A DNA stretch of 25,342 nt from a virus: IMG/VR virus record IMGVR_UViG_3300042477_000086, positions 1 through 25,342 of that record; one strand, 5' to 3'. The notes below the pieces were generated by a model, which saw only the letters and a program-made list of their open reading frames with translations, was not told the origin of the DNA and did no database searches. A program made the position numbers and the translations under genes. Of the stretch, positions 1 through 14,592 are shown piece after piece (the first letter of the stretch is position 1; the number at the start of each line of letters is the position of its first letter).

Positions 1-60
1 GCCACAGGAGCCGGCGCTACCGGAGTCTCGACCACAGGTGCCGGTGCTACAGGGGTTGAG
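1..60. repeat. 30-bp tandem repeat, two units visible
   Basis: Bases 1-30 and 31-60 align with about 22 of 30 identities (both contain CCACAGG, CCGG and GCTAC). On the minus strand each unit encodes ten residues ending TPVAPAP. The array may continue beyond the window edge. Confidence 0.6.
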
Positions 61-266
61 ACAACCGGAGACACTGTGACAGTAACGGGGACAGTCACCG
101 GAGACTCGGCAGCGGGGACAGTTGTCACAGGCACCTCAACAGGAGTAGGATTCACCACCTTCGCCACTTCCGCCTGGGCAGCAGCGGGGAGCTTCTCGAC
201 CAGCATCTTCAAGACCATCGTGTTAGCAAGGATCGCTTCAGCAATGATGTGGATTTCAGATTTCAT
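1..266 (-). CDS. Pro/Val/Ala-repeat protein, 3' end beyond window
   Basis: The frame is open from ATG at 266 down to base 1, so only the first 88 or so residues are seen and the C-terminus lies outside. The first 35 residues look helical (MKSEIHIIAEAILANTMVLK, then LVEKLP). After that the protein becomes a low-complexity Pro/Val/Thr/Ala tail that settles into 10-residue units of the form V-V-x-T-P-V-A-P-A-P. The ATG overlaps the stop of the upstream gene (ATGA at 263-266), so it is probably translationally coupled to the small DNA-binding-like protein. I do not recognise the family. A helical head with an extended Pro-rich tail could be a linker or scaffold-type protein, but this is a guess. 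The gene is supported by the overlap and the long repeat-preserving frame. Confidence 0.6.
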   Translation of the reverse strand, partial: MKSEIHIIAEAILANTMVLKMLVEKLPAAAQAEVAKVVNPTPVEVPVTTVPAAESPVTVPVTVTVSPVVSTPVAPAPVVETPVAPAPV

Positions 267-463
267 TTTGTTAGTCCTTTGGTAAATAGAGGGTTCAACT
301 TGGGTGCTTCGATCTCAATGCGGTTCTCGATGAACGCAGTCACCAACTCACGCAGTACGAATGAGGTGCCACCGTACTTTGCGGATAAGTTGATGAAATT
401 CCTGCGGACTTCGGGTGACAGTCTCACCGCTACTGTCTGATCCTTCGTCTTCTTGGTTGCCAC
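263..463 (-). CDS. small ribbon-helix-helix-like protein (66 aa)
   Basis: A 66-residue basic protein. Residues 9-16 (QTVAVRLS) look like the short beta strand of a ribbon-helix-helix DNA-binding fold. They are followed by PEVRRNFINLSAKYGG and a second helix (SFVLRELVTAFIENR), which is the usual strand-helix-helix order. The preferred start is GTG at 463, because AAAGGAG lies 8 bases upstream; the longer ATG start at 523 would overlap the promoter -35 box. The stop overlaps the start of the next gene as ATGA. A near-consensus promoter lies just upstream. Proteins of this class often act as dimeric repressors of their own operon, so autoregulation at the divergent 464-554 region is plausible. 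It is not shown by the sequence, and the fold call rests on pattern only. Confidence 0.7.
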   Translation of the reverse strand: MATKKTKDQTVAVRLSPEVRRNFINLSAKYGGTSFVLRELVTAFIENRIEIEAPKLNPLFTKGLTK

Positions 464-494
464 TTCTGATCTCCTTTGTGAGTAGGTGTTGCAA

Positions 495-523
495 ATCATA
501 AAGACTTGTTTTACACTTGTCAA
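495..523 (-). promoter_or_regulatory. near-consensus sigma-70 promoter, leftward
   Basis: On the minus strand there is TTGACA (523-518), a 17-base spacer and TATGAT (500-495). The -35 is perfect and the -10 matches five of six. Transcription would begin near 488 and read the 66-aa gene and the repeat protein. A weak opposing pair with 17-base spacing (TTGCAA at 489-494, TACACT at 512-517) overlaps it and could serve the HNH and primase genes. Confidence 0.75.
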
Positions 524-554
524 TAGCAGTCAAACAAAAATTTACGAGGTAACC

Positions 555-1313
555 ATGTCAGCACTTCCAGACCATCTAGTTTTACTACCTATCTCGGTAG
601 CAAAACTCAGAGGAATCAAGATGTTCTATAAGTCAGTAGGGTGTAAGAAATGCGGTTGTCATGCGTATTGGGTCAGTGACAGTAGATGCTACGAATGCGC
701 TAAACAGCGGTTGAGGGATAGGTACAAGACTAATCCAGACAAGGAAAAGGCTAGAACCAGTGCCTACAGCAAACAACCCGAAGTCCGATTGAGAAACGCT
801 GAGAGACTTAGACAGAGGCGCAAAGAGAACCCCGAACGATTCAGAGAATACGACGCAACCAAGCGATTGAAGATAGTTTCCGATCCTGTATCACTGACTA
901 AAGAACGACAAAGACAACGAGTAAAACAGAAACGTGCATACGAGAAAGACCCTGAGAAATTCAAGGAGCGTAGAAGACAATGGTACGCAGTAGAGGATAA
1001 CGCTAACTACTCACGGCAATACTGTACTGAGTACAAACGGAATCATCCAGATGTCATACGAAACCTGAATCTCAAACACAATGGGAAAGACCGAGCAGCA
1101 AGGAAGAAAAGGCTTCCCGCATGGCTAACCCAAGAGGATTTCAATCAAATGAAGAAGATTTACGAACAAGCAAAGACGTTAGGATTACACGTCGATCACA
1201 TCATCCCGCTACAGGGTAAAAATGTAAGTGGTCTTCATGTACCGAGTAATCTTCAGCTTCTGAGTCAAGCTGAGAATTGTGCAAAGAAAAACAGATACGA
1301 GGTGGAACTATGA
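555..1313 (+). CDS. HNH endonuclease, probably free-standing homing type
   Basis: A 252-residue, very basic protein. Near the N-terminus is a zinc-ribbon-like Cys cluster (C30, C33, C35, C45, C48: CKKCGC ... CYEC). The middle is charged and repetitive, with several 'NPEKxRE'-like units such as NPERFREYD and DPEKFKERR. The C-terminal HNH motif starts at about residue 212: HVDHIIPLQGKN, then GLHVPSNLQLL and ENCAKKN, giving the DH, N and terminal N positions of phage HNH nucleases. The start at 555 has ACGAGGT upstream. An alternative start at 621 (MFYKS) with AGAGG upstream would drop 22 residues that do not look part of the family. The stop overlaps the primase start as ATGA. Such enzymes nick or cut DNA and spread themselves into phage lacking them. 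Arg codons are mostly AGA/CGA, unlike the head genes. Confidence 0.85.
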   Translation: MSALPDHLVLLPISVAKLRGIKMFYKSVGCKKCGCHAYWVSDSRCYECAKQRLRDRYKTNPDKEKARTSAYSKQPEVRLRNAERLRQRRKENPERFREYDATKRLKIVSDPVSLTKERQRQRVKQKRAYEKDPEKFKERRRQWYAVEDNANYSRQYCTEYKRNHPDVIRNLNLKHNGKDRAARKKRLPAWLTQEDFNQMKKIYEQAKTLGLHVDHIIPLQGKNVSGLHVPSNLQLLSQAENCAKKNRYEVEL

Positions 1314-3799
1314 GTGCTGTACCGAAGATGTCACCAATGCTTGCCGCTTATGAGAGTTATATTAATGTCGGATTTTCACTGGTCCCCATTGTTTCAGGAA
1401 AAGGTCCGGTCGGTCTAGGTTGGAATGCGAGAGAGCGATGTGTCACTGACATCTCGAAACTAAACGATACGATTGGAGTTGGTCTAGCTCATGCGTACAG
1501 CGGAACGATGGCGTTGGACATCGATGAGTGGGATAAAGCCAGTGAATTCTTGGCTACCCATGATATTGACCTGAAATCACTATTTGATGCTCCTGACTCA
1601 GTGACTATCAATAGTGGTAATCCCGGTCATGCCAAGCTGCTTTACCGTATGCCGTTTGGTATGTCATTGACTAGCAAGAAGCTGATCTATGTCGAATCGG
1701 ATGGTATGAAAAAAAACTATCTCGACTTCCGCTGCGCCACCGCATCAGGACTAACTGTGCAGGATGTGTTGCCAAGTGCAGTACGTCACCCGATTACTTG
1801 TCAGCCGTATAGTTGGGGTGGAAATGGACATTACACCAACCTCCCCGCCATACCCGAGGCATTACTTGCTCTTTGGCAGTCCCTCTTGACCAAGGATACC
1901 GAGCGTAGTATTTCGGTCAAGGGTTCCCCGGTCGATGCCTCATGGGATGAGATCAAACAGGCACTCGACCATATCAACCCGGACATCAGCCGCGACGAGT
2001 GGGTGCAGATCGGTATGGCGCTGCACTATGCCGGCACTGCCACGCAGCAACTCGACCAGGCACTCACTGTATGGAATGATTGGAGTGCCAACGGGAGCAA
2101 GTACAAGGGTGAGAAGGATATCCTGACCTGCTGGAAATCCTTCACAGCAGACGATACCGGAGTCAAGCTCGGCACCCTGTTCCACTACGCCCGAGATGCC
2201 GGCTGGGTACGTCCGTTGCCAGATGTGACCTATATGTTCAGCGAGGTGACCGCATCCTCCCCAAAGTCCATTATTGACGGGCTGGTGATCCATCCTCCCG
2301 TCTGCGATATCGACCTGTTCCCCGAAGTGCTAACCAATCGCGCCAAGGTGATCGCCCGTGCATTCGCCGCTGACCCTCTAGTCCCCATCTTCGCCGGACT
2401 TGGGGCTATACAGGCGGCAGTCGATCAGCGTACCCGTCTGCATCTGATGGACGGCTGGGAAGTGCCACCTATCCTCTGGACGATGACAGTCGGGTCACCA
2501 TCGGCCAAGAAGACCCCTGCTGCCACCCCCATGTTGGAAATACTGGCAAAGCTGGAGAAGGAAGACCTTCCCCGGTATCGTCAAGAGTTCGCCTTATATG
2601 AGGCACTTGAGGCGGCATACGCAGCATCGAAGAAGGCATACCTGCAAGCTGCTGCTGATCCCAATCATATGCTCGGGGGTAATCTGGATGTCGCCGCCTT
2701 ACCGACCGTTGCCGCCCAGCCTATAGCTCCTGTAGCCCTCCGAATGACCGTGGGTAATATCACCAGCCAGAAACTCGCACGAATGGCTATAGAACGTCCC
2801 CGTGGGCTTCTGTGCCATCTGGATGAAATGAGAAGCTGGGCAGACAAGCTATCGGACAAAGGATCAGGCGAGGATCGATCCACATGGGTACAGTCCTATG
2901 AGGGCAAAGAGTACAAGATGGATCGGGTAGGCGATGGCGACCTATGCGCTGACCATCTGGCAGTCGGGATACTCGGCAATATGCAGCCTCATGTACTGAC
3001 CGAAAAACTACCCATGCTTATATCAGATGGTCTTATACAGCGGTTTATATTCGCCGTCATATCGGATCACCATAGTGACAAGCTCAACGATCCCTCGGCC
3101 ATAGACCCGATAGGGCAGCTACAGTACGAAGAAGCCATCCGCGCCATATATGCCCTGCCAGTGACCACCTATCGCCTGTCAGAGGGTGCTTATACGGCTT
3201 TCCGGGCTTATCAGGAATGGTTCCTTATATTGAAGAAGGATGAACGTATCACCCAGGCCTCGAACGTATATATGGAAGCCATAGGTAAAGTCGAAGGCAC
3301 CACTGGCCGCCTTATGCTGCTGCTGCACCTTATAACTGATCCCCACGCTATCGAGGTATCAGCGGATACTGCCGTGAGAGCTATACGACTGGTACAGGGC
3401 TATATCGTACCAGCTATGCGTTATGTGTACGGCAATATCGAGGGAATCGACGCAAGCTCTCTCGATAAGTGGGTTTTGGATCACGTTCTATATGTGGCAA
3501 GTCAAGCCAGTACGATAACCCTCTCCGAATTGCGTAGGTCTGCCCGACAGCAGATCAAAGGTATAACACCACAGCGGGCTGATTTGATGCTATCTGATGC
3601 AATGGGGATTCTTGAATCGAATGGGTGGGTTAGTCTGCTGGAACAGAATCAGAAAACCACTAAATGGGCGATTAATCCCGCCATCAAGGATATTGACAAG
3701 GATTACCGGCAGACTGTTATCGATGCGCGGCAAAGGATATATGATCATATCCACGCGACATCAGGCGGAAAAGCCCCTAGGCGCATCGCCAAGGGATAA
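1310..3799 (+). CDS. primase-helicase (prim-pol + PriCT-2-like + DUF3987-type helicase)
   Basis: An 829-residue replication protein with three regions. Residues about 10-195 resemble the bifunctional primase/polymerase domain: the acidic pair D70/D72 in ALDIDEWD, H107 in NSGNPGHAKLLYR, and LDFR (138-141) followed by VLPSAVRHP. Residues about 207-300 match a PriCT-2-like linker (WDEIKQALDHINPDISRDEW, then WKSF and GTLFHYARDAGW). Residues about 335-640 resemble the DUF3987 P-loop region, with a variant Walker A (GSPSAKKT, 395-402) and a Walker B-like LCHLDEM (501-507). Together they would lay primers and unwind DNA at the phage origin. The start at 1310 is preferred over the upstream ATG at 1277, because it has GAGGTGG upstream and overlaps the HNH stop. 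The helicase region uses ATA for isoleucine far more than the rest of the gene. Confidence 0.9.
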   Translation: MSAVPKMSPMLAAYESYINVGFSLVPIVSGKGPVGLGWNARERCVTDISKLNDTIGVGLAHAYSGTMALDIDEWDKASEFLATHDIDLKSLFDAPDSVTINSGNPGHAKLLYRMPFGMSLTSKKLIYVESDGMKKNYLDFRCATASGLTVQDVLPSAVRHPITCQPYSWGGNGHYTNLPAIPEALLALWQSLLTKDTERSISVKGSPVDASWDEIKQALDHINPDISRDEWVQIGMALHYAGTATQQLDQALTVWNDWSANGSKYKGEKDILTCWKSFTADDTGVKLGTLFHYARDAGWVRPLPDVTYMFSEVTASSPKSIIDGLVIHPPVCDIDLFPEVLTNRAKVIARAFAADPLVPIFAGLGAIQAAVDQRTRLHLMDGWEVPPILWTMTVGSPSAKKTPAATPMLEILAKLEKEDLPRYRQEFALYEALEAAYAASKKAYLQAAADPNHMLGGNLDVAALPTVAAQPIAPVALRMTVGNITSQKLARMAIERPRGLLCHLDEMRSWADKLSDKGSGEDRSTWVQSYEGKEYKMDRVGDGDLCADHLAVGILGNMQPHVLTEKLPMLISDGLIQRFIFAVISDHHSDKLNDPSAIDPIGQLQYEEAIRAIYALPVTTYRLSEGAYTAFRAYQEWFLILKKDERITQASNVYMEAIGKVEGTTGRLMLLLHLITDPHAIEVSADTAVRAIRLVQGYIVPAMRYVYGNIEGIDASSLDKWVLDHVLYVASQASTITLSELRRSARQQIKGITPQRADLMLSDAMGILESNGWVSLLEQNQKTTKWAINPAIKDIDKDYRQTVIDARQRIYDHIHATSGGKAPRRIAKG

Positions 3800-3802
3800 A
3801 AG

Positions 3803-3827
3803 AAAAGCCCCGATTAAGGGGCTTTTT
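3803..3827. terminator. bidirectional Rho-independent terminator
   Basis: Stem AAAAGCCCC (3803-3811), loop GATTAA, and GGGGCTTTT followed by another T (3818-3827). Downstream of the rightward primase this leaves a T run. Read leftward, the reverse strand ends in TTTTCTTTT, so it also serves the convergent small-gene cassette. A second AAAAGCCCC inside the primase end (3769-3777) could compete for the same GGGGCTTTT. Confidence 0.9.
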
Positions 3828-3845
3828 GTTTGGTTTGAGGTTAGG

Positions 3846-3902
3846 CTAACTGCGCCACAGGATACCGACTAAGGCGAGGCAAAGGGCTAACAGTGTGGAC
3901 AT
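3846..3902 (-). CDS. possible 18-aa single-span membrane peptide
   Basis: ATG at 3902 overlaps the stop of the 53-aa gene (TAATG), and GGAG lies about six bases upstream of it. The peptide is MSTLLALCLALVGILWRS: one continuous hydrophobic segment ending in a Trp-Arg interface. Its stop (3846-3848) comes just before the shared terminator, so it would be the last gene of the leftward cassette. Tiny one-span peptides occur among phage lysis and membrane proteins, but nothing here assigns a function. A chance ORF of this length cannot be excluded; the coupled start and hydrophobic composition are the only support. Confidence 0.35.
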   Translation of the reverse strand: MSTLLALCLALVGILWRS

Positions 3903-4063
3903 TATTTCTCCGGATGTTCTGATTGATAAACGTCTTTGGCTAACTTGATAAGGGATTCTGCCTGATCTGGATACAACCCATTGTGTTCGGCGTATCGTTC
4001 AATGGTCAGATAGTTATTGAACCAATCAAGGTATACAGCGATTAGTGTGTCGCGCATGATCAT
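3902..4063 (-). CDS. conserved-looking small phage protein (53 aa)
   Basis: Begins MIMRDTLIAVYLDWFNNYLT and continues IERYAEHNGL, then ends in a charged helix (DQAESLIKLAKDVYQSEHPEK). The 'YLDWxNNyLTxExfAEhxGL' pattern is one I associate with small uncharacterised proteins common in tailed phages. The segment LTIERYAEHNGLYPDQAESLI has the look of a small helix-turn-helix, in which a fixed-in-place helix is followed by a recognition-like helix. The ATG at 4063 overlaps the preceding stop as ATGA, and the gene's own stop overlaps the next ATG. It is too short for ordinary ORF thresholds, but the coupling on both sides and the familiar motif make it a good call. Function unknown; an early-gene role is suggested only by its cassette. 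Confidence 0.75.
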   Translation of the reverse strand: MIMRDTLIAVYLDWFNNYLTIERYAEHNGLYPDQAESLIKLAKDVYQSEHPEK

Positions 4064-4290
4064 TTCCCATTCTCTAGTTTTTCTATACTCGCTTTCAATT
4101 CGTCGATAGTCTCCAAGGCGGACTCTAACTCTAGCCCTAGCTCTTCGTAGCTCTTCCAGTCACAAAGTCGCATTTGATCTAGCAATGATTCGAGCGTATT
4201 GCGCATTGCGTCCGGAGTACCATATCTGACAACCTCATCGATAGCAGCAGCCGACAAGTAGGTGCCTTGTGATTGTTCATGGTTTAGCAT
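4060..4290 (-). CDS. hypothetical protein, acidic coiled-coil C-terminus (76 aa)
   Basis: The start is ATG at 4290, with AAGGGGA six bases upstream; an in-frame ATG at 4350 lacks a site and would run into the upstream gene. Residues 1-40 are mixed (GTYLSAAAIDEVVRYGTPDAM). The C-terminal half (ELGLELESALETIDELKASIEKLENGK) is a strongly heptad-like acidic helix, probably a coiled coil. Its stop overlaps the next start as ATGA. I do not recognise the family. It lies in the leftward small-gene cassette and is probably expressed early with its neighbours. Confidence 0.7.
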   Translation of the reverse strand: MLNHEQSQGTYLSAAAIDEVVRYGTPDAMRNTLESLLDQMRLCDWKSYEELGLELESALETIDELKASIEKLENGK

Positions 4291-4300
4291 GGTGTTCCCC

Positions 4301-4867
4301 TTAGTGAGAGATAAAACAAAGTTTGCCTTTAGCGCCGGCAAGTTTGGCAATGGCTAACAGGGCTTGGCGCATCGAATCGGAACCACATCCGCCAATATGT
4401 GCGCGTTTCTTTAGGTCTTCTTTGACCTGATGGCGTAGCGTGCGCGGTACAGTGCACCGATAGTGGTATCCGGCATCCTCGCTTATCGCATAGGCGGCAT
4501 CAAGTGCCGCATCAGAATAGTCGGGATTTGGATAGTCTGCCCATACCATTCCCTTATCATCGGCGTATTGGCTACCGTATAGCTCAATCCCTGCCGATTC
4601 AATCGCGTCCGCTAGTGCCTGGCTTTCCTTGTGGTAGCCGTATCCGCCCGCGCTACCTTTCCCGCTCGCGTGGATGGCACCATGTACCCATAGCGATATA
4701 TAGACCACACTGGCAGAGCCACTGCGCCCCATGTATGCACGCGCAGTGACAATCTCGCGTAGCTCACCATTGATTGTGCCGACTACGGAATAGGCGCTCA
4801 CCAATTCTTTATCGCGCCCATAGTTGTAAGCGTTCGATTGATCAGGCTTGATTAGTTTGGCTTTCAT
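4301..4867 (-). CDS. conserved hypothetical phage protein (188 aa)
   Basis: A 188-residue soluble protein. The N-terminal half reads as a beta-rich segment (SAYSVVGTINGELREIVTARAYMG, then ASVVYISLWVHG) and passes into a Gly/Ser/Tyr loop (GKGSAGGYGYHKES). The C-terminal half is helical and ends in a basic, Cys- and Gly-containing tail (KRAHIGGCGSDSMRQALLAIAKL). I know this as a type of uncharacterised phage protein but cannot attach an activity; no catalytic motif is clear. The start at 4867 has GAGGT upstream, within the preceding gene, and overlaps that gene's stop as ATGA. The stop is only 10 bases before the next start. Confidence 0.8.
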   Translation of the reverse strand: MKAKLIKPDQSNAYNYGRDKELVSAYSVVGTINGELREIVTARAYMGRSGSASVVYISLWVHGAIHASGKGSAGGYGYHKESQALADAIESAGIELYGSQYADDKGMVWADYPNPDYSDAALDAAYAISEDAGYHYRCTVPRTLRHQVKEDLKKRAHIGGCGSDSMRQALLAIAKLAGAKGKLCFISH

Positions 4868-5019
4868 TTCAATACCTCATGAAGGATAGTAGATAGACCG
4901 GCAAAGCTCATGGCGATGCCGGATTCTGCGACACTAAACACACCAGCGATAAATCCCGCACCGACTAGCGCAACAAGTGCCAGTAGTGCGAGACGAAAGA
5001 TAAGTTCAGCGGATGTCAT
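4864..5019 (-). CDS. small membrane protein (51 aa)
   Basis: ATG at 5019 has AGGGGA upstream. The peptide starts MTSAELIFRLALLALVALVG and continues AGFIAGVFSV, giving one membrane span over about residues 5-30, followed by a short amphipathic tail (GLSTILHEVLK). The stop overlaps the start of the 188-aa gene as ATGA, which supports translation. A single-span small protein encoded by an early phage cassette could act at the membrane (host takeover, superinfection exclusion, holin-like), but nothing distinguishes these. It was missed by length-limited ORF calling. Confidence 0.65.
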   Translation of the reverse strand: MTSAELIFRLALLALVALVGAGFIAGVFSVAESGIAMSFAGLSTILHEVLK

Positions 5020-5028
5020 GATGATCCC

Positions 5029-5103
5029 CTAGAGAGTGATGCCGTGGATGAATCGGGCTTTGTAGTAACAGTGGAACAGATAGGCTAGTTCTTGTTGCGT
5101 CAT
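5029..5103 (-). CDS. possible 24-aa peptide
   Basis: ATG at 5103 is preceded by a full GGAGG (5113-5117) nine bases upstream, one of the strongest ribosome sites in the cassette. The peptide is MTQQELAYLFHCYYKARFIH plus GITL, rich in aromatic residues. Its stop lies within the ribosome site of the 51-aa membrane protein, an arrangement expected of a leader or coupled gene. Function unknown. It could instead be a non-functional leader whose strong ribosome site simply loads ribosomes for the next gene. Confidence 0.4.
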   Translation of the reverse strand: MTQQELAYLFHCYYKARFIHGITL

Positions 5104-5146
5104 GGTTTGCTACCTCCATGTGCATTATTCTAGTGATTCATTCCAT

Positions 5147-5184
5147 AAAGTCTAATCATTGTTTCTGATACTCGATTAGACTTT
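5147..5184. repeat. 11-bp perfect inverted repeat in leftward cassette
   Basis: AAAGTCTAATC (5147-5157) and its exact complement GATTAGACTTT (5174-5184), 16 bases apart, lie in the 89-bp gap between the 119-aa and 24-aa genes. TTCCATAA occurs as a direct repeat at 5141-5148 and 5183-5190. The stem is AT-rich with no T run after it, so it is not a standard terminator. An operator, RNA-processing site or attenuator is possible. Confidence 0.75.
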
Positions 5185-5192
5185 CCATAAGG

Positions 5193-5552
5193 TTATGCTG
5201 ATAGTTCTTTCTGAATCATTCGCATGATTCGATCACGATCAGCAGGGAATTCTTGCCCGACGTGCTTGCTCGCATCAAATAGGCTTGCACTTCCTCGGTC
5301 AATCTCTTTGACCCAGTATGCTACCTCTTCATGGATTGCCTGATCACTGGCACCATGTACCGCTACCTTTTTGGTTACAGTCTTCGTGGCGATTGTGGGG
5401 ACGTATTCCACATTGCGCACGAACGGAAAGAGCGAATCCATCATCCCTAACTTGTGCGCTTTGCGATACGCGACACTGTTGCCGCGCCAAAAGTCAGACC
5501 TAGTTTTGTAGTTACTTGCTTCTTTGATCACTGCCATTGCGTCCCATTTCAT
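5193..5552 (-). CDS. small protein with 'YKTRSEF'-type DNA-binding module (119 aa)
   Basis: The start at 5552 has AAGGGGA upstream. The N-terminus (residues about 7-40: AVIKEASNYKTRSDFWRGNS, then VAYRKAHKLGMMD) matches the 'A.kYkTRseF.k.ssgAY.aA.r.G.lD' module. I associate that module with DNA-binding segments next to phage VSR-type and homing endonucleases. No nuclease motif follows. The remainder is a Thr/Lys/Val stretch (TIATKTVTKKVAVHGAS) and a helical C-terminus (IHEEVAYWVKEIDR, FPADRDRIMRMIQKE). It is the first gene of the leftward cassette, next to the inverted-repeat control region, so it may be a DNA-binding early protein. Whether it binds those repeats is inference. Confidence 0.75.
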   Translation of the reverse strand: MKWDAMAVIKEASNYKTRSDFWRGNSVAYRKAHKLGMMDSLFPFVRNVEYVPTIATKTVTKKVAVHGASDQAIHEEVAYWVKEIDRGSASLFDASKHVGQEFPADRDRIMRMIQKELSA

Positions 5553-5594
5553 GATGGTTCCCCTTCGTGGTGGATAAGTTAGTTCAGTCTAACA

Positions 5595-5757
5595 TGTAAA
5601 TGTAAATAAGTGTAACTGTTCCATCCGTCTAGTTTTGGGGATATGGATACTTTGAAAAATTTAGTTTTGTAGTTGGAATTATTACAAGAATTTAACTCAT
5701 CCAAAAATTCTCGCACGGAAAGCACGGATGGAACAGTTACACTTATTTACATTTACA
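5595..5757. repeat. perfect 34-bp inverted repeat with 95-bp AT-rich spacer
   Basis: The left arm 5595-5628 and right arm 5724-5757 are exact reverse complements over 34 bases; pairing fails on the first base outside and inside. Each arm contains TGTAACTGTTCCA and TGTAAATGTAAA-type repeats. The arms flank the AT-rich 5629-5723 and sit 42 bases upstream of the 119-aa gene start. Confidence 0.95.
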
Positions 5758-5827
5758 CATTGTCACAGTTACACAGTCCCGAATCATTCGGGATTCTAGG
5801 ATAGTTCGATAGTCTGTAACTGTTCCA
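5611..5827. promoter_or_regulatory. four TGTAACTGT sites (putative operator or iteron cluster)
   Basis: TGTAACTGT is found at 5611-5619 and 5815-5823 on the plus strand, and at 5733-5741 and 5765-5773 on the minus strand. Three of the four are extended to the 13-mer TGTAACTGTTCCA (5611-5623, 5729-5741, 5815-5827). Two sites lie inside the inverted-repeat arms and two outside, so the motif is repeated independently of the arms. This is what a multi-site protein-binding region would look like. Confidence 0.65.
5777..5793. repeat. short perfect hairpin
   Basis: TCCCGAA (5777-5783), loop TCA, TTCGGGA (5787-5793). There is no T run on either side, so it is probably not a terminator. It lies between the third and fourth TGTAACTGT sites. 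Confidence 0.6.
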
Positions 5828-5976
5828 AGTGTGACAACCATGTATTACCTGACCAGGTTAGTCGGGTATCCAGGTCGGCTCGGGTCTGTGGTGTCACTGC
5901 TCCACCTGCTACCGCGTCACCTCCAGATGCGAATGATTCTTGTTCGTGATGCCAGGGGGGGAGGGTCTGACTCATC

Positions 5977-6034
5977 TGTGTAAGTTTTAGCCAGAGCCCC
6001 CCACGCGCCGAAGAAGCTAAAATGACCTTACACA
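5977..6034 (+). promoter_or_regulatory. 15-bp bulged hairpin upstream of terS
   Basis: TGTGTAAG plus TTTTAGC (5977-5991) pairs with GCTAAAA (6016-6022) and CTTACACA (6027-6034), leaving a TGAC bulge and a 24-base loop. The loop carries C6 (5997-6002), which is complementary to the G7 run at 5955-5961, so a pseudoknot-like fold is possible. It ends 46 bases before the terS start and could be a leader structure or part of the DNA packaging site. Confidence 0.55.
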
Positions 6035-6080
6035 TTCCATAATCAGTTAAACTGTGATACCCTAGGGCAGCACATCAACA

Positions 6081-6605
6081 ATGGAACCTATCATGGACAA
6101 TTCCACGTTACCAGACTGGCTCAGACCCACTGATGACCAGATATCAGAGCAGGACATGAAATTCCCGCGAACAAAGGATCACAAGGAAATCCAGCGGATT
6201 ACCTTTGAGTCGATCTTTGAGCGGGTGATTGAATCCTTGGAAGCGGGAAGACCGGCAAGTCAGACAATCAAGGAAGACCCGAGAGGTGTCGATGTTGGTC
6301 GCTTTATGGCATGGGTGAGAAGGGATGCCCAACGGTTCGACAGATTTCAGGAAGCCAAGAAGAACGGGATGCTCATCCTGGAAGACAGGCTTATGGAAAC
6401 TGTGGATGACACGGAATCGATGGAGGATGTCCAGCGGACCAAGTTGAGAGTGGATACGATCAAGTTCGTGTTGCAGTCATGGGATAGGCGATATAAGTCG
6501 AACGAGAAGGCTGAGTCGAACAATGGTGGTCCGATCAATATCACCATCACAGGTGTCACAAGTCCGTACAACCAGATCGAGAGTGGAGTGACTGTCGATG
6601 GCTGA
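6081..6605 (+). CDS. terS: terminase small subunit
   Basis: A 174-residue protein that would recognise phage DNA and hand it to the large subunit. Residues about 40-90 form a helical segment with an HTH look (ITFESIFERVIESLEAGRPA ... GRFMAWVRRDAQRFDRF). Residues 92-138 match the familiar TerS tail: AKKNGMLILEDRLMETVDD, then EDVQRTKLRVDTIKFVLQSW. The last 25 residues are a flexible tail that could contact TerL. It overlaps terL by 8 bases. The start is uncertain: 6081 has only a poorly placed AGGG, and 6093 (MDNS) is an alternative. Arg codons are mainly AGA/AGG, as in terL and unlike the portal. Confidence 0.85.
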   Translation: MEPIMDNSTLPDWLRPTDDQISEQDMKFPRTKDHKEIQRITFESIFERVIESLEAGRPASQTIKEDPRGVDVGRFMAWVRRDAQRFDRFQEAKKNGMLILEDRLMETVDDTESMEDVQRTKLRVDTIKFVLQSWDRRYKSNEKAESNNGGPINITITGVTSPYNQIESGVTVDG

Positions 6606-7866
6606 TCTCAATTTCACGTTGTTGAACTGGCAGAGACAAGTCATATCCGATAACTCACGGTTTAAGGTGATAGTGGCTGGGCGACGGACGGGGAAGACGC
6701 AGTTCTCTCTGGTACAGACGGTGATACGCGCGCTGGAGTGCAGGGAGAATTCGGCGGTGGTGTTGTATGTAGCCCCGACATGGGGAATGGCGAGGATGCT
6801 GGCATGGGAGCCGTTGATCCAGTTGGCAGCGCCGGTGATCGCTAGTAGTAACGTGAATAATGGTGAGATACGGCTGGTCAATGGGATGCGGATATGTGTC
6901 CGTGGTAGTGATAACCCGGATAGCTTGCGGGGGATGAAGTTGTACCATGTGACGCTGGACGAGTATCAGGACGCGAAGGCGCAGACATGGGAGTACATCA
7001 TCCGTCCTGCGTTGAGTGACTTGAAGGGGACTGCGGTGTTCATTGGTAGCCCGAAGCCGGATGCTGACAGTTTCAGGAGGTTGTACGACCTGGGGCAGAC
7101 GGGTGAGGATAGTGATTGGAAATCGTGGTTGTTCAAGACTTGCGATAACGAGCTTATCGATCCGAAGGAGATCGAGGCGGCGAGGAAGTCGATGAGTACG
7201 GCAGCGTACTTGCAGGAGTATGAGGCTGAGTGGGATACGGCTGGTGCGAATATCCTGAAGATGGAGTGGTTCGCTACGGGAGAGGAGCCGAAAGGTCAGT
7301 ACAGTACCTACATAGCGATTGACCCTGCGGGGTTTGAGAATGCCGCAGTGGATGACATGAAGAAGAAGTATCTGGACTTCTTCGCTATTGCTGTGGTCAG
7401 GGTGTACGACAACGGGAACTGGTGGGTGCAGAAGATCGACTATGGACGATGGGATGTCAGGGAGGCTGCTGTGAGGGTGCTGATGGCAGTGAGAAGTCAC
7501 AAGCCGATTTGTGTGGGTATGGAGAAGGGTGCGCTGATGAGAGCGTTCATGCCGTACTTTCAGGACTTGTCTAGGAAGAACAACGTCCATTGCCATGTGG
7601 AGGCGATCCCGACCAGCGGGAGCAGTAAGGCTAACCGGATCGTGTATTCGCTCCAGGGGAGAATGGAGCATGGCAGGATCACGTTCAACCCCAAGGAGGA
7701 TTGGATGGAGATCAAGAAGGAGATGCTGGCATTCCCGTCACAGAAGGCGCATGATGACTTGCTGGATGCGCTGTCGATGGTGGATCACCTGGCTACGGTG
7801 GTCTATGGTGATCTGAACGAGGTGCAGGAGGAATATGAAGTGATTGACGAGATTTGTGGATTCTGA
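6598..7866 (+). CDS. terL: terminase large subunit
   Basis: A 422-residue packaging motor and DNA-cutting enzyme. The ATPase region has Walker A at residues 27-34 (AGRRTGKT) and Walker B ending in D121-E122 (YHVTLDEYQDA). A coupling-motif-like FIGSPKP is at 148-154. The RNase H-like nuclease region carries the expected acidic residues: D242 in YIAIDPAG, E309 in GMEKG and D386-D387 in AHDDLLDALSM. Length is typical. It starts inside terS and is probably translationally coupled. Codon use is distinctive: I count AGA or AGG for 14 of 25 arginines, against about 2 of 30 in the portal next door, so the terminase pair probably has a separate origin. Confidence 0.95.
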   Translation: MADLNFTLLNWQRQVISDNSRFKVIVAGRRTGKTQFSLVQTVIRALECRENSAVVLYVAPTWGMARMLAWEPLIQLAAPVIASSNVNNGEIRLVNGMRICVRGSDNPDSLRGMKLYHVTLDEYQDAKAQTWEYIIRPALSDLKGTAVFIGSPKPDADSFRRLYDLGQTGEDSDWKSWLFKTCDNELIDPKEIEAARKSMSTAAYLQEYEAEWDTAGANILKMEWFATGEEPKGQYSTYIAIDPAGFENAAVDDMKKKYLDFFAIAVVRVYDNGNWWVQKIDYGRWDVREAAVRVLMAVRSHKPICVGMEKGALMRAFMPYFQDLSRKNNVHCHVEAIPTSGSSKANRIVYSLQGRMEHGRITFNPKEDWMEIKKEMLAFPSQKAHDDLLDALSMVDHLATVVYGDLNEVQEEYEVIDEICGF

Positions 7867-7896
7867 TACCCTCGCGGCAATCGATAGGAGAAAGCT

Positions 7897-7947
7897 ATGG
7901 CTTGCAAACCCAAGAAGACGAAACGCCCTCCCGTCAAACGCCGCTAG
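7897..7947 (+). CDS. 16-aa basic peptide between terL and portal
   Basis: ATAGGAGAAAGCT precedes an ATG at 7897, a strong and well-placed ribosome site. The peptide is MACKPKKTKRPPVKRR: nine Lys/Arg in sixteen residues, with no acidic residue. The stop TAG forms part of TAGGAG, the ribosome site of the portal gene, so translation of the two is probably linked. It may bind nucleic acid or the negatively charged portal or terminase, or act only as a translational leader. The ribosome site is the main evidence, since a 16-codon ORF alone proves little. Confidence 0.5.
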   Translation: MACKPKKTKRPPVKRR

Positions 7948-7956
7948 GAGCGACTC

Positions 7957-10020
7957 ATGGACGCAGATAACGTCAATTACGAACAGACAGGGCAGGTCAT
8001 TGACGTTGCCGCTGAAGACGAGCAAGCACCTCAGTATTACGAGCCTACCGAGTCCGACAAGGAGCTAACTGCCTTTGTTGTCGATCATACGGACCGTTGG
8101 CGCGAGTTCCGCGATCAGAACTACCTCGACGATTGGCTCAAGTACGAGCGTATCTTCCGTGGGCAGTGGGCGGAAGAGGACAAGACCCGTGGTTCCGAGC
8201 GCTCCCGTGTCATCAGCCCGGCTACCCAACAAGCAGTAGAGACTCGCCACGCTGAAATCATCGAAGCGATCTTCGGTCAAGGGGAGTTCTTCGACATCAA
8301 GGACGATCTGGCTGACCAAAATGGTCAAATTGACGTTGAAAAGCTGAAAAATCAGCTAATGGAGGATTTTGCACAGGACAAAGTGCGGAAATCCTTCGAT
8401 CAGATCACTCTTTTAGCTGAAATTTACGGTACGGGTATCGGTGAGATCACTGTTGGCAGCGAAAAACAGTTCAAACCCATGCAAGTACCCCTCGACCAGC
8501 AGCAAATGGCTTACGGTGTGGGTGAAAAAGACCGTGTTTGCGTGAAATTGGTACCGGTTAATCCGAAAAACTTCCTTTTCGACCCCAACGGTACGTCGAT
8601 TGACGACTGTATGGGTGTAGCGATTGAGAAGTACGTCAGCATCCACAAGATCGCGGCTGGTATCAAGTCTGGCAAGTACAAGAACGTAGATATTGGCTCA
8701 CTTTACGAGGATGACTCGCTGGAAGTGACCCAGGAGGATGTCCAGTACGAGGATGACAAGGTTCTCCTGCTGACATACTACGGTCTGGTGCCGCGTGAGT
8801 ACGTCACGGGCATGGAAGAGGTCGAGGAACTGTTCCCGAATGAAGGGGAAATGGCAGTCAGCGAGCAGATTGAGGACTACACTGACATGGTGGAGGCGAT
8901 CATCGTCATCGCCAACGGTTCCCTGCTCCTGAAGGCCGAAGAGTCGCCCTACATGATGAAGGATCGACCGGTGATCAGCTATCAGGCTGATACGGTGCCT
9001 AATCGCCTCTTGGGGCGGGGTACGGTCGAGAAGGCATACAATATGCAAGCCGCCATCGACGGCAGCGCCAGAAGCCACATGGACGCTCTGGCGCTGACTG
9101 TTGCCCCTATGATGGGGATGGACGCTACCCGACTGCCTCGAGGTGCCAAGTTTGAGGTCAAGCCGGGTAAGGCGTTCATGACCAACGGCAACCCTGCCGA
9201 GATTCTGATGCCGTTCAAGTTCGGCACCAACGATGGTCAGGCGATGCAGACCAGCAAAGAGTTTGAACGGATGCTGCTGATGGCAACCGGCACGATTGAC
9301 TCCAATGGTACGCCGAGTGCAGTCGCCCGTGATGGTCAGTCGATGGATATGGCTACTGCCACGATGATCAAGAAGTACAAGCGGGTACTGACGAACTTCC
9401 AAGAAGACTTCCTGATCCCGTTCATCTACAAGACCACTTGGCGCTATATGCAGTTCGATCCCGAGCGGTATCCCTCTGTCGATGTCAAGTTCATCCCGAC
9501 CGCTACGCTGGGCATCATCGCCCGTGAGTATGAGCAGAAGCAGCTTGCCTTCCTGATCCAGACGCTGGGTGCACAGTCCCCGCTGACTCCGGTACTCATG
9601 CAGGGCGTGGTCAAGAACTCCAGTCTGAGTAACAAGGAGCAGATGCTGGCACAGATGGCGCAGATGAGTCAGCCTAACCCGCAGCAACAGGCGATGGCTC
9701 AACAGGCGGCAGAGATGGAAGCTCGTCTGAAAGCGGCTGAAACGGCGCTTAAAGAGGCCCAGGCAGAGAAGGCTAGGGTTGAGGCTCAACTGGCACCGGA
9801 AGAGACTAAGGCGAAGATCATCAGCGCACTGGCGAACAATCTGGACGAGGACAACGAAGGTAAAGACTTCGAGCGCCGCGCCAAGATAGCCGATCTGATG
9901 CTCCGTGAAGAAGATATTCGGTCTAACGAGCGGATCGCTACCCAGCAGATGCAAGCGAAACAGGCCGAAGCCGCCAAGACCAGCGACTACATGAGTAAAG
10001 CCTCTGAATTGATGCAATGA
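7957..10020 (+). CDS. portal protein
   Basis: A 687-residue protein following terL, in the standard position for the dodecameric ring through which DNA enters and leaves the head. The N-terminal body (residues about 35-110: WREFRDQNYLDDWLKYERIF, then SRVISPATQQAVETRHAEIIEAIFG) and the core YGTGIGEITV ... VPVNPKNFLFDPNGTSIDD are typical of podovirus portals. The crown or barrel end at residues about 575-615 is a predicted coiled coil rich in Gln/Ala/Glu (QQAAEMEARLKAAETALKEA). GGAG lies six bases before the ATG. Arg codons are mostly CGT/CGC. The stop overlaps the collagen-like gene as ATGA. Confidence 0.92.
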   Translation: MDADNVNYEQTGQVIDVAAEDEQAPQYYEPTESDKELTAFVVDHTDRWREFRDQNYLDDWLKYERIFRGQWAEEDKTRGSERSRVISPATQQAVETRHAEIIEAIFGQGEFFDIKDDLADQNGQIDVEKLKNQLMEDFAQDKVRKSFDQITLLAEIYGTGIGEITVGSEKQFKPMQVPLDQQQMAYGVGEKDRVCVKLVPVNPKNFLFDPNGTSIDDCMGVAIEKYVSIHKIAAGIKSGKYKNVDIGSLYEDDSLEVTQEDVQYEDDKVLLLTYYGLVPREYVTGMEEVEELFPNEGEMAVSEQIEDYTDMVEAIIVIANGSLLLKAEESPYMMKDRPVISYQADTVPNRLLGRGTVEKAYNMQAAIDGSARSHMDALALTVAPMMGMDATRLPRGAKFEVKPGKAFMTNGNPAEILMPFKFGTNDGQAMQTSKEFERMLLMATGTIDSNGTPSAVARDGQSMDMATATMIKKYKRVLTNFQEDFLIPFIYKTTWRYMQFDPERYPSVDVKFIPTATLGIIAREYEQKQLAFLIQTLGAQSPLTPVLMQGVVKNSSLSNKEQMLAQMAQMSQPNPQQQAMAQQAAEMEARLKAAETALKEAQAEKARVEAQLAPEETKAKIISALANNLDEDNEGKDFERRAKIADLMLREEDIRSNERIATQQMQAKQAEAAKTSDYMSKASELMQ

Positions 10021-10502
10021 TCGACAAACTTAAGAAACTTCTCGCACCGGATGTCGATATCGCGGCCAAGTTGGTCGTGGTATCGACGTTCTTCGGGAAA
10101 GTTCTAACAAGTTATGGTGAAAGATTAGTAGAACTGGAAGCCCGACAGCTACAGAAGGGCGATAAGGGTGATCGCGGTGAAAAAGGCGAGAAAGGTGATC
10201 CTGGTCCTGCTGGAGCGGTTGGTCCGGCTGGAGCTATCGGTCCTAAAGGTGACGCTGGCATCAATGGTAAGGATGGAAAACCGGGTAAAGACGGAAAACA
10301 GGGTGTATCGGTAGTCGATTCTGAAGTCGATATTGATGGGCATCTGGTTCTTAAACTGTCAAATGGTAAAGTAATCGATGCAGGTCCGCTACCGGAAGGT
10401 AATACGGCTTCCACCTTCGTATCTGGAAACGCTTGGCAAATTGAAGTATCATCCACACCACCATCTAACCCGCAGCTTAATCAGTTGTGGCTACAGATTT
10501 AA
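10017..10502 (+). CDS. collagen-like protein coupled to portal
   Basis: A 161-residue protein with three parts. The helical N-terminus (1-46, MIDKLKKLLAPDVDIAAKLV ... YGERLVELEARQ) is followed by an unbroken Gly-X-Y run, with Gly at every third position from 48 to 96 (17 glycines). Next is a compact beta segment (VSVVDSEVDIDGHLVLKLSNGKVID, positions about 97-123). A C-terminal stretch ends in PPSNPQLNQLWLQI. Collagen-type runs form trimers, and the beta segment after such a run resembles trimeric fibre tips. The C-terminal 'NPxxxxLW' ending is common in phage structural proteins. It overlaps the portal stop as ATGA, so it is probably a virion component such as a thin head or neck fibre. Confidence 0.85.
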   Translation: MIDKLKKLLAPDVDIAAKLVVVSTFFGKVLTSYGERLVELEARQLQKGDKGDRGEKGEKGDPGPAGAVGPAGAIGPKGDAGINGKDGKPGKDGKQGVSVVDSEVDIDGHLVLKLSNGKVIDAGPLPEGNTASTFVSGNAWQIEVSSTPPSNPQLNQLWLQI

Positions 10503-10512
10503 GGAGTAACAC

Positions 10513-10926
10513 ATGGCTACATTCGTAAAAGTCGCGGACGCTATTGAACCGCTGTTGGAGGCAATCAACTCGGGGTCTGACACTTGGAAGATCGCCCTTG
10601 CTGCCACTTCTCCTGCCTCGTCTGCTTTCGTGGCTGGTACGACTGACCTGACGACCTCTGGCGGCTATACGGCTGGCGGCAATACGGCTACCGTATCGAG
10701 CGCCACTCAGTCTGCCGGCACCTACAAGTTGGTGCTGAACAGCCCCTCGACTTGGACTGCTACGGGCGGTGGTTTCACCTTCCGCTATGTTCTCTTGGTC
10801 AATAGTACCAACAACATCACGGTCGGCTACTGGGACTACGGTGGTAACGTGGTGATGAACGGGACGAACGGTGACACTTTCACCGCGAACCTCGATGGCA
10901 CTAACGGTGTATTCCAGGTCACCTGA
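10513..10926 (+). CDS. virion structural protein (137 aa)
   Basis: AAGGAGTAACAC precedes the ATG. The protein is Gly/Thr/Ser-rich and beta-type: WKIALAATSPASSAFVAGTT, LTTSGGYTAGGNTATVSSAT, then a region ending YWDYGGNVVMNGTNGDTFT. The 'WKIAL...GTTDLTTxGGYTAGG' pattern is one I associate with small uncharacterised structural proteins in phage and prophage head regions. A decoration or adaptor role is inferred from its place between portal and capsid. The stop and next start overlap as TGATG. Confidence 0.75.
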   Translation: MATFVKVADAIEPLLEAINSGSDTWKIALAATSPASSAFVAGTTDLTTSGGYTAGGNTATVSSATQSAGTYKLVLNSPSTWTATGGGFTFRYVLLVNSTNNITVGYWDYGGNVVMNGTNGDTFTANLDGTNGVFQVT

Positions 10927-11561
10927 TGACTCTCACCTTCCGATCAGTTAAGGGGTCCGGTCTTACCAACGAGGAAATCGATGGTAATACCACCCATTTT
11001 AACGACCGTACCAAGAATGGTTGGGCGGACATCGTAGCTGAACTGTACACGCGGGGAGGTAATGCCTCTCCGGTTACATCGCAGTTCAAGGGTGGTATCT
11101 ACCTGTACGAATTCACTCCTAGCGATGTGCTGGAAGTCTTTAGTAACTTCCATATCCCTCATGCGTGGCGAACTGGAACAATGCTGTATCCGCACTTCCA
11201 TTTCTCCTGCAAGACGAACGATTCTGGGGTTGTCCGGTTGGGATTTGAATACACAGGGGCTAGGCGGCATGATGACTCGGGTACTGTAGTCTTCCCTGAT
11301 ACGCAGACGATCTATGTGGAATTCGAGATTACTGCAAACAGTGCCTTTGAGCATTTCGTCGCAGAGGCACCAGAGAATCAAGGCATTCCTGGCACACTAT
11401 TGAACGTCGATGCGATGGTAATGACGCGAATCTTTCGTGACGCTACCCATGTGAATGACACGTTCCCAGAATCTATTTACGGTATCACGGCGGATTTGCA
11501 CATTGAGGTAGATAAAGCCTCTACTCCGTTCCGCGCACCTGACTTCAACACAGGGGTTTGA
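10926..11561 (+). CDS. virion structural protein with 'MPHAW/PHxHF'-type core (211 aa)
   Basis: The N-terminus (FRSVKGSGLTNEEIDGNTTH) is a short leader of the kind that joins phage fibre or head proteins to a partner. The core contains LEVFSNFHIPHAWRTGTMLY followed by PHFHFSCKTNDSG, and later MVMTRIFRDATHVNDTF and DLHIEVDK. I recognise the 'hIPHAWxxGTxxYPHxHF' signature from a widespread but uncharacterised family of phage structural proteins. It is probably beta-sandwich. The TGATG overlap with the previous gene suggests coupled expression. I cannot say whether it sits on the head, neck or tail. Confidence 0.75.
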   Translation: MTLTFRSVKGSGLTNEEIDGNTTHFNDRTKNGWADIVAELYTRGGNASPVTSQFKGGIYLYEFTPSDVLEVFSNFHIPHAWRTGTMLYPHFHFSCKTNDSGVVRLGFEYTGARRHDDSGTVVFPDTQTIYVEFEITANSAFEHFVAEAPENQGIPGTLLNVDAMVMTRIFRDATHVNDTFPESIYGITADLHIEVDKASTPFRAPDFNTGV

Positions 11562-11562
11562 C

Positions 11563-12219
11563 ATGGCTCAAGCTAACGATTCGATCTTAGTAACTCCTGG
11601 TTCTGGAGCAACAGTAGCGACACAACTCGCCAACAGCAAAGAGTACCAAGTTATTTGTACGGCAGATGAAGGTGGGCATATTGTCGGATCGAAAGATACC
11701 TATCTCTACGCAATCCCGTCGCAGGTTCATGTTGCTGTCGCCAACACGGTTCATTGGGACATCTTCAACGCAGACGCGACCTTGTTGGTTCGTATTGTCT
11801 CCATCAAGCAAATCCCCAACATCACCACAGCGGTTACTGGTGTTGTGTTCGATTGGCAATTGTTCCGTACTTCTGCTGTGGGTACAGGCGGTTCTGCACA
11901 GACAGCATGGTTGCCGGATACCTCACAGACTGCTTTGAGTGCTAACGTCACCTGCCGTAGCAAGCCGACAGGAGGGGCGACCACTTCCGGTTCATCCATC
12001 AAGAACTACGCTTTGCATGGCGAAGAGACAAACAACGGTTCTATCGTCGTAACGTCGCTTGGTGGTCTTGAGCTTGTTCCTCAGTCGATTCAAGGATCAC
12101 TGACGGGTGGTATCCAACACGGCATTCTTCTGCGTCAGAACCAAGGATTGAAGTGCGTACAAGTGACGAACTCCGCAGCAGGTAACACTGCTTGGGAAAT
12201 CACCTTCACGGTGGAGTAA
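11563..12219 (+). CDS. virion structural protein (218 aa)
   Basis: Starts one base after the previous stop, with CAGGGG as a weak ribosome site. The protein is beta-rich and low in charge: an N-terminal half (YQVICTADEGGHIVGS ... TVHWDIFNADATLLVRIVSI) and a C-terminal half with NYALHGEETNNGSIV, LGGLELVPQSIQGS and GIQHGILLRQNQGLKCVQV, ending ITFTVE. I do not recognise a named domain. Membership of the tightly packed portal-to-capsid block is the main evidence that it is a virion protein. Confidence 0.7.
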   Translation: MAQANDSILVTPGSGATVATQLANSKEYQVICTADEGGHIVGSKDTYLYAIPSQVHVAVANTVHWDIFNADATLLVRIVSIKQIPNITTAVTGVVFDWQLFRTSAVGTGGSAQTAWLPDTSQTALSANVTCRSKPTGGATTSGSSIKNYALHGEETNNGSIVVTSLGGLELVPQSIQGSLTGGIQHGILLRQNQGLKCVQVTNSAAGNTAWEITFTVE

Positions 12220-12222
12220 GTC

Positions 12223-13209
12223 ATGCTGCTCCCACTGCTACTTGGGCAGGGAACAGCCGGTGGGCCGACCAATTACAGTCTCACCTGTGCTAACGGGTCT
12301 TATACCTACACAGGGCAAGCCTCTGGCACGTTAAAGCGCGGTCATAGCCTTACCTGCGCCCATACGACCTACTCATATACGGGTCAGGCATCAGGGACAC
12401 TAAAGCGTGGTCATAGCCTCACCTGTGCGCATACGACCTATAGCTACACAGGGCAGAACACTGGATTACTGAAGATTGGGCATAGCCTCACTTCGGCTCA
12501 CGGTTCTTACACCCTAACGGGGATTGACGCTACCCTAAGTTACATCCCTGGTGCAGCCAAGGTTGATTATTCGCTCTCCTGCTCCCATGCTGACTACTCA
12601 TTAACTGGTCAGGCGACTACTTTCGTTTTCAATCGGAAACTCGCTCTAGCTCACGGTTCCTACAGTTCGACCGGCTACTCGGCTACTTTTGTCCGGGCAG
12701 TCAAACTGATCGCCAGTAACGGCACTTATACCTTCAGTGGCCGCTCGGCTACACTGAATAAAGCATCGCAGATCATCGCGTCCCACGGTGGCTATACGCT
12801 CACCGGACAGGACATCACCACACCTTGGACTCGATCCATCACCTGTGAAGCGGGGACGTTCTCGCTCGCAGGGCAGGATGCCAGCCTCGCCTACTCCGCA
12901 GGGCAGATAGACTACGCGCTATCCTGCTCACATGGCGCATACAACTGGTACAGCGGCTACGCTAGTCAGGATTATTTCGCAGAGGACTACAATGCGTCAG
13001 GTGCCACGTTTGATCGTACCTTCGTTGTAGCTAACAACTACCTCGACTGTAACGTAGCTATCTACACGCTTCAAGGGTTCAATCTGACAGGGACGTTCTC
13101 TTTCTCGACGTTCCCGCAGACGGGTGGTAGTTCGACATTGGCATATTGGAACGGATCAGCTTGGGTTGATGCTCAACTGAGATACTGGAACGGGAGTGAT
13201 TGGGTATGA
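12223..13209 (+). CDS. beta-repeat virion protein with about ten 'SLTCAHxxYxYTGQ' repeats
   Basis: A 328-residue protein. From residue 17 it is built from about ten units of 22-29 residues on the pattern SLTCAHGxYxLTGQxAxL; the first three are 23 residues each, back to back (17-39, 40-62, 63-85). This 'Gxyx.tGq' repeat is known from uncharacterised phage and prophage surface proteins and probably makes a beta-solenoid-like or pseudo-repeat fibre. The C-terminus changes to another module (DRTFVVANNYLDCNVAIYTL) and ends with two copies of YWNGSxWV. GGAG lies upstream, overlapping the previous stop. The stop overlaps the next start as ATGA. A role on the virion surface is inferred. Confidence 0.75.
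   Translation: MLLPLLLGQGTAGGPTNYSLTCANGSYTYTGQASGTLKRGHSLTCAHTTYSYTGQASGTLKRGHSLTCAHTTYSYTGQNTGLLKIGHSLTSAHGSYTLTGIDATLSYIPGAAKVDYSLSCSHADYSLTGQATTFVFNRKLALAHGSYSSTGYSATFVRAVKLIASNGTYTFSGRSATLNKASQIIASHGGYTLTGQDITTPWTRSITCEAGTFSLAGQDASLAYSAGQIDYALSCSHGAYNWYSGYASQDYFAEDYNASGATFDRTFVVANNYLDCNVAIYTLQGFNLTGTFSFSTFPQTGGSSTLAYWNGSAWVDAQLRYWNGSDWV
12271..12546 (+). repeat. 69-bp in-gene tandem repeats
   Basis: Units begin at 12271, 12340, 12409 and 12478 with an exact 69-base period. The second and third units are nearly identical at their start (GGTCATAGCCT-ACCTG-GC then CATACGACCTA). The fourth diverges. Repeat number may vary between relatives. Confidence 0.8.
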
Positions 13210-14492: not shown

Positions 14493-14517
14493 CATAGACT
14501 AATACTAGGTATATAAG
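14489..14517 (+). promoter_or_regulatory. near-consensus sigma-70 promoter before scaffold and capsid
   Basis: TTGACA (14489-14494), a 17-base spacer and TATAAG (14512-14517). The start of transcription would be near 14524, about 70 bases before the scaffold ATG. It overlaps the stop codon of the zinc-ribbon gene. It would give extra transcription of the scaffold, capsid and decoration genes, bounded by the terminator at 16827. Confidence 0.8.
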
Positions 14518-14592
14518 GAAACTATTCAGTCATGCAACCGTATAGGACATGGCTATTGAACAACCTGGAACCCGATAGGGCAGGAGAACCAA

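Follow-up and report, generated by a model that had tools for sequence, protein, structure and literature searches.

A 34-bp inverted repeat between the early and late genes of an uncultured freshwater phage, and its possible role as a stem-loop replication origin

The window analyzed here is the whole 25,342-nucleotide stretch of record IMGVR_UViG_3300042477_000086, which derives from an uncultured freshwater phage. The genes are laid out as follows (Table 1). A leftward gene for a small ribbon-helix-helix-like (RHH-like) protein precedes two rightward genes, encoding an HNH/endonuclease VII-like protein and an 840-aa Prim-Pol/PriCT-2/DUF3987 replication protein. Then come the leftward small genes, an intergenic region (5553–6080), and the late operon, which begins with the gene for the terminase small subunit, TerS. 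PF09250 and PF08707 were matched in the 1277–3799 product. Its helicase part matched DUF3987 only, and a profile search with the primase C-terminus found no structure or family for a winged helix there. A contig in another metagenome record, IMGVR_UViG_3300049594_000042, is 100% identical over window 1–17863, and the merged contig is 31.9 kb long. To the left of the window, the identical contig encodes a DUF2800 exonuclease, an Enc34-type ssDNA-binding protein, a PolB-family polymerase, a VRR-NUC protein, and an SNF2 helicase. No integrase was recognized in the phage fragment. A TerL search of genome contigs found no relative and therefore gives no evidence of a host or lysogen.

Elsewhere in the window, a tandem repeat (12307–12491) lies inside a 328-aa ORF (12223–13209), and the overlapping frames 13523–14008 and 13806–14030 (together 13523–14030) suggest a frameshift or a sequence error in one gene. 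The 119-aa gene has a separate inverted repeat, AAAGTCTAATC...GATTAGACTTT, downstream of it (5147–5184). A further copy of AAAGTCTAATC lies in L206, one of the relatives described below, about 1190 beyond the primase end.

Table 1. Coordinates of the genes and sequence features discussed in the text
Feature	Position	Strand	Remark
Small RHH-like protein, candidate arm binder	263..466	-	Conserved with the replication module
Prim-Pol/PriCT-2/DUF3987 replication protein, 840 aa, proposed initiator	1277..3799	+	Likely start near 1310
119-aa protein, first gene of the leftward operon, lineage-specific	5193..5552	-	
Left arm of the perfect 34-bp inverted repeat	5595..5628	+	
Dyad site TGTAACTGTTCCA in left arm	5611..5623	+	
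Core, 95 bp, AT-rich (32% GC), promoter-like sequences on both strands	5629..5723	.	GC and promoter-matrix scan
Weak dyad site TGTAATAATTCCA in core	5674..5686	-	9/12 match
Right arm of the inverted repeat	5724..5757	-	
Dyad site TGTAACTGTTCCA in right arm	5729..5741	-	
Second, shorter stem-loop closed by TTGTCACA/TGTGACAA	5760..5837	.	GTGACAA is the family arm motif
Dyad site TGTAACTGTGACA, 32 bp from the 5729..5741 site	5761..5773	-	
Dyad site TGTAACTGTTCCA, overlaps a leftward promoter-like sequence (5820–5793)	5815..5827	+	
Weak dyad site TGTCACTGCTCCA	5892..5904	+	9/12 match
G-run GGGGGGGAGGG	5955..5965	+	Also upstream of terminase genes in relatives
TerS, first gene of the late operon	6081..6605	+	Homologous to replication-module relatives

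The inverted repeat and its dyad sites

As the preliminary description had it, the two arms are complementary at 34 of 34 positions and enclose a 95-bp AT-rich core. This is the sole exact inverted repeat in the window of at least 14 nt with a spacing of at most 600 bp. Arm scores in the 528-bp intergenic region reach 34, whereas Markov shuffles average 7.8 and never exceed 12; the single-strand fold z-score is -10.3. The core has a GC content of 32%, against 52% overall, and the lowest-GC 95-bp segments of the merged contig lie nearly all within 5571–5755. Candidate hexamers for outward promoters are present in the arms and are not distinctive in a promoter scan. Rfam gave no match for the region at the gathering threshold; the permissive hits, to miRNA-precursor families, were triggered by the hairpin shape and were set aside. 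A DNA search of 5000–6700 against phage records found no match.

Nothing beyond the perfect identity of the arms speaks for an assembly artefact, a concern named in the preliminary description. The 100% identical contig includes the repeat, which has therefore been assembled twice. This refutes the artefact reading unless both assemblies share raw reads, and the flanks agree with the architecture of relatives (see below). An artefact is thus scarcely credible.

The 9-mer TGTAACTGT occurs four times, at 5611, 5733 (minus strand), 5765 (minus strand), and 5815, all within 5611–5823. As first described, two copies are inside the arms and two outside, and three carry the 13-mer TGTAACTGTTCCA, exact at 5611, 5729 (minus strand), and 5815. 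One-mismatch copies of the 9-mer add two in the arms (5595 and 5749). A better description of TGTAACTGT is that it belongs to a 13-bp dyad, TGTAAC-N-GTTACA, of which the 31.9 kb contains four 11/12 copies (0.05 expected), all within 217 bp; two 9/12 copies are weak. With one arm removed, the dyad cluster is still beyond 300 of 300 shuffles. The 16-mer AARTGTAACTGTTCCA was also sought in viral contigs; among the matches listed there was one site per locus, read as chance.

Several copies of one dyad at predicted divergent promoters are the mark of an operator region for a dimeric repressor, and the window has this arrangement. The unique cluster thus bears out, in outline, the earlier suggestion that the region is an operator. 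The main rival to the origin proposal developed below builds on this arrangement. It holds that a regulator dimer bridges the arm dyads, silences the core promoters, and so controls early leftward and late rightward transcription, with no origin involved. In its favor are the four dyads around promoter-like sequences and two known systems. In phi29, p4 and p6 sites lie between promoters A2c/A2b and A3 and govern the early/late switch (PMC3100819); as in the window, inverted-repeat protein sites sit between early and late promoters, near promoter-like -35 elements. The phi29 p4 sites, however, are short imperfect repeats, and there is no long stem-loop or Prim-Pol origin there. In pLS20, the Xre-type regulator RcoLS20 acts at clustered operators as a looping switch at divergent promoters (PMC4207663). 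The window likewise has clustered operator-like sites at divergent promoters, and in relatives a RepC-like HTH protein accompanies the dyads. In contrast to pLS20, a search of the window phage's known 31.9 kb revealed no HTH regulator, and looping there is hypothetical. The length of the arms also sits poorly with a switch alone: the functional site is 13 bp, and a pair of operators needs no 34-bp identity. Overall, a control switch lacking an origin is possible, and the looping switch may coexist with an origin.

The stem-loop in related phages

Two sets of relatives, 159 in total, were assembled: a packaging set of 79 loci, found by TerL, and a replication set of 80 loci, for which the query was an alignment of the window and DSL-LC05 phage primases. 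The public contig of one relative, L069, starts with apparent Illumina adapter sequence. Homologues of the window's TerS, RHH-like protein, p154, and PolB are found in 60, 57, 71, and 52 of the replication-module loci, respectively, and in none of the terminase set. The distribution is reversed for TerL and portal, with homologues in the packaging set; L235 is the exception and has both. On this gene distribution, the window phage is taken to be a mosaic, with the junction between TerS and TerL (at about 6600), and the inverted-repeat region belongs to the replication side.

The stem-loop segregates in the same manner. No equivalent inverted repeat is found in the 79 TerL relatives. A profile grown from the element of one replication relative matches 60 of the 80 replication-module loci, and 58 of the 65 whose sequence extends 2.6 kb or more past the primase; none of the 79 TerL relatives gives a significant match (best E=0.68). 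The misses are contigs ending early, plus L206, L207, L209, L211, L235, L236, and L266. That the arms might be absent or random in close relatives, a worry raised at the outset, is therefore true of the terminase relatives, where they are absent, but not of the replication-gene relatives, where a stem-loop is present. The closest single relative, L206, falls in between: it has a weak, imperfect stem-loop only, and neither it nor L211 has a significant inverted repeat in a shuffle test.

In the relatives, the stem-loop spans 95–135 bp upstream of the TerS homologue, with stems of up to 16–20 bp. Typically, a pair of ACCCA-N-TGGGT dyads spaced by about 59 bp comes first; then follow the stem-loop, several further dyads, a G-run, and TerS. 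The core is AT-rich (median 1.5th GC percentile; at or below 5% in 49 of 60). In most loci the G-run follows 175–419 bp on, and TerS is at +360 to +760; the window equivalents are +198 and +324. The family arms contain GTG...CAC, and upstream of TerS the arm motif GTGACAA is enriched about 19-fold. Clusters of TGTRACW sites are present in the window, L207, and L211.

Arm pairing in the relatives is under selection. Paired cells amount to 80%, versus 42–47% when the partner strand is slid. Arm covariation is 0.116 versus 0.082 in shuffles (0 of 500 shuffles as high; 41 sequences), in statistics that treat related contigs as partly independent. Because close kin can exceed shuffles without any structure, more weight is given to the slide control and to L207, L209, and L235, which have the stem-loop with different arm sequences. 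A sequence HMM of the relatives' element found no match in the window core, i.e., no significant homology; the equivalence of the two elements therefore rests on position and architecture. The inverted repeat is a real, selected feature, since related phages have a stem-loop at the equivalent spot beside the same DNA-copying genes. The earlier proposal that selection keeps the repeat is upheld in outline: the stem-loop is in the same place in most replication-module phages, and its arms covary.

These comparisons bear on two further explanations. The first is that template switching recently duplicated a segment with one operator in inverted orientation, the symmetry itself having no function. 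The arms are 100% identical well beyond the 13-bp site, and arms as long as 34 bp are not seen in relatives, as such an event would have it. Equivalent covarying stem-loops at the same position in many relatives argue against it, and we consider it unlikely. The second is that the arms are recombination or transposition sites, i.e., an inverton or a pair of mobile-element ends. A perfect 34-bp repeat around about 95 bp fits the size of either. But no recombinase or transposase was recognized among the proteins searched, the arm pattern has 0 matches in genome contigs, and both assemblies have the same orientation. As for mobile-element ends, there is no clear target-site duplication (none >2 bp, by eye), and the family of sites extends beyond the arms. 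With an equivalent element fixed in relatives as well, the former mobile-element ends once suggested for this repeat find no place here, and either version is very improbable.

Candidate binders and the G-run

ACCCA-N-TGGGT dyads are concentrated in the relatives' region, with 324 there and 14 elsewhere (815 kb). They co-occur with RepC, a small HTH protein annotated as 'repressor protein C' in DSL-LC05. RepC is present in 58 of 58 element loci and in L236 and L266, both of which also have dyads; it is absent from L206, L207, L209, L211, L235, and the window. Three RepC loci, L249, L253, and L255, have at most one recognizable dyad each. Given this co-occurrence, RepC is likely the reader of ACCCA-N-TGGGT, making the two a candidate regulator-operator pair, and ACCCACTGGGT is a candidate site for the RepC of DSL-LC05. 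A RepC-like HTH protein is also encoded at L205 36014–36325; across L206–L284 its co-occurrence with the dyad is almost perfect.

The association of RepC with flanking dyads favors transcriptional control, and hence the switch described above. Two findings run against that reading. The stem-loop persists in L207, L209, and L235, all of which lack RepC and its dyads. Also, the dyads occupy one region only, which is unusual for the operators of a genome with two divergent regions.

In the window lineage, TGTAAC-type sites stand in place of the ACCCA dyads, without RepC. The preliminary description put forward the adjacent 119-aa protein as a binder. It has no homologue in the 159 relatives, the phage records, or the viral contigs, the identical contig excepted, and is therefore a weak candidate; it does not co-occur with the TGTRAC-type sites, although these are common to L207 and L211. 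A regulatory role limited to this lineage is still conceivable. The RHH assignment of the other small protein is based on a sequence pattern, with weak profile matches (MazE7 E=0.49, RHH_10 E=0.09). Single-sequence AlphaFold models of both proteins were too weak for a fold search.

Downstream of the dyads lies the G-run. On the TerS strand, G6-9 A G3-5 is found upstream of the terminase genes in 38 of 38 TerL relatives whose contigs reach 2.2 kb or more upstream, and at one other place in 776 kb. A C-rich partner and an A-rich stretch come after it. Most replication-module relatives also have a similarly formed G-run. Mitochondrial CSB2, G5-6AG7-9 (PMC5027508), is similar in form to the G-runs of the relatives and of the window. 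A reading of the G-run as cos or pac was discarded, as the contig starts are not concentrated at a single base. The RNA fold of the TerS leader (window 5840–6080) shows no excess.

Other arrays occur in individual loci. Dyads of the type AGTNAGTGCTNACT cluster just upstream of the G-run, before TerS, in L005, L014, L016, L021, L032, L047, and L072, and Fur-box-like GAATGATTC palindromes lie upstream of TerS in L005, L014, L030, and others. Iteron-like arrays, located at the 3′ end of a helicase-primase-like gene and ahead of a RusA-like gene, are found in L057 (8162–8444, TGTACCGAA in 11 copies) and L060 (8487–8636, TCATCCGAA).

A candidate replication origin

We propose that a replication origin of the pRN1/BIP-1 kind lies within the divergent early/late control region and that the repeat is its stem-loop. 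We put the probability of this reading at just under one half. The proposal starts from what is observed: the repeat, the dyads, the AT-richness, the co-segregation with the replication module, and the covarying arms of the relatives. From these we infer origin activity, the identity of the initiator, and each binding event, as follows. The 840-aa Prim-Pol/PriCT-2/DUF3987 protein would bind TGTRAC-type sites in and beside the arms, possibly assisted by the small RHH-like protein. The initiator would then open the AT-rich core, perhaps by hairpin extrusion, and prime synthesis for the phage PolB. The dyad cluster would also control, as an operator, the divergent promoters of early leftward and late rightward transcription, so that replication and the early-to-late switch would share a single cis-acting hub.

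The pRN1 origin is the closest model. It is a ~100-bp stem-loop, with a 21-nt stem and a 58-nt loop, that is needed for replication; its structure is conserved whereas its sequence conservation is low, and the pRN1 replicase primes at GTG (PMC4234260). The Prim-Pol protein of pRN1 resembles that of BIP-1/BPP-1, which has Prim-Pol, PriCT_2, helicase, and winged-helix parts, and in 2014 a stem-loop origin was predicted for Prim-Pol/PriCT_2 phages, based on pRN1 and a few Bordetella phages (PMC4234260). The likenesses are a non-coding stem-loop of ~100 bp (stem about 20 nt, loop about 60 nt) in which structure prevails over sequence, GTG/CAC in the stem, and a Prim-Pol protein in the same module, with PriCT_2 in both BIP-1 and the window phage. 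The window has the long stem (34 bp) and large loop (95-nt core) of this type, and structure outlasts sequence turnover, as seen in the covariation and in the changed arms of L207, L209, and L235. An SF3 helicase and a C-terminal winged helix also characterize the replication protein of this type; for the window protein, the searches gave DUF3987 and no winged-helix match. The differences are that the helicase part is annotated DUF3987, that the stem is longer, that the origin role is predicted, that the element lies in a divergent early/late region, and that dyad arrays flank it and a G-run accompanies it. Moreover, the pRN1 origin is 54 bp from the replication gene, whereas here the element lies kilobases past the primase gene, 1.8 kb in the window. 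As it is not directly 3′ of the replication gene, the element is regarded as a variant, not a member, of the pRN1/BIP-1 type. Phage P4 offers a further parallel, in that its multifunctional primase-helicase initiator, alpha, acts at repeats in its own origin; alpha, however, has a Toprim-type primase, and the P4 origin consists of repeats without a long stem-loop (PMC4234260).

Besides the selected arm pairing, the changed arms of L207, L209, and L235, and the pRN1 precedent, two findings speak for the origin: the element tracks the replication module and not the packaging module (60 of 80 versus 0 of 79 significant), and its position and architecture, i.e., AT-rich core, G-run, and TerS, are fixed among relatives. 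Against it, sequence models of the relatives' element miss the window core, L206 and L211 have no significant inverted repeat, no winged helix was detected in the primase C-terminus, the leftward gene cassette lies between the primase gene and the repeat (3799 versus 5595), and the association of RepC with dyads in relatives points to transcriptional control. Codon-position skews (codon-3 GC skew) have no replication signature and are uninformative. The origin function that the preliminary description had entertained thus stands in outline, through the link of the stem-loop to the replication module.

An extension of the origin proposal is a composite, previously undescribed origin. It would consist of a stem-loop whose covarying arms turn over fast, of lineage-specific dyad arrays, and, after these, of the CSB2-like and nearly universal G6-9-A-G3-5 run. 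Rightward transcription through the G-run would form an R-loop or hybrid G-quadruplex that serves as leading-strand primer, timing the passage from early transcription to replication and late expression. We hold this extension to be unlikely.

Few mapped origins are known from virulent tailed phages that encode Prim-Pol replication proteins of their own. In about 60 environmental phages, a covarying stem-loop segregates with the replication module, and site arrays follow one HTH gene. RepC and ACCCA-N-TGGGT thereby become a concrete candidate regulator-operator pair, and with these phages the proposal of a stem-loop origin for Prim-Pol proteins becomes directly testable.
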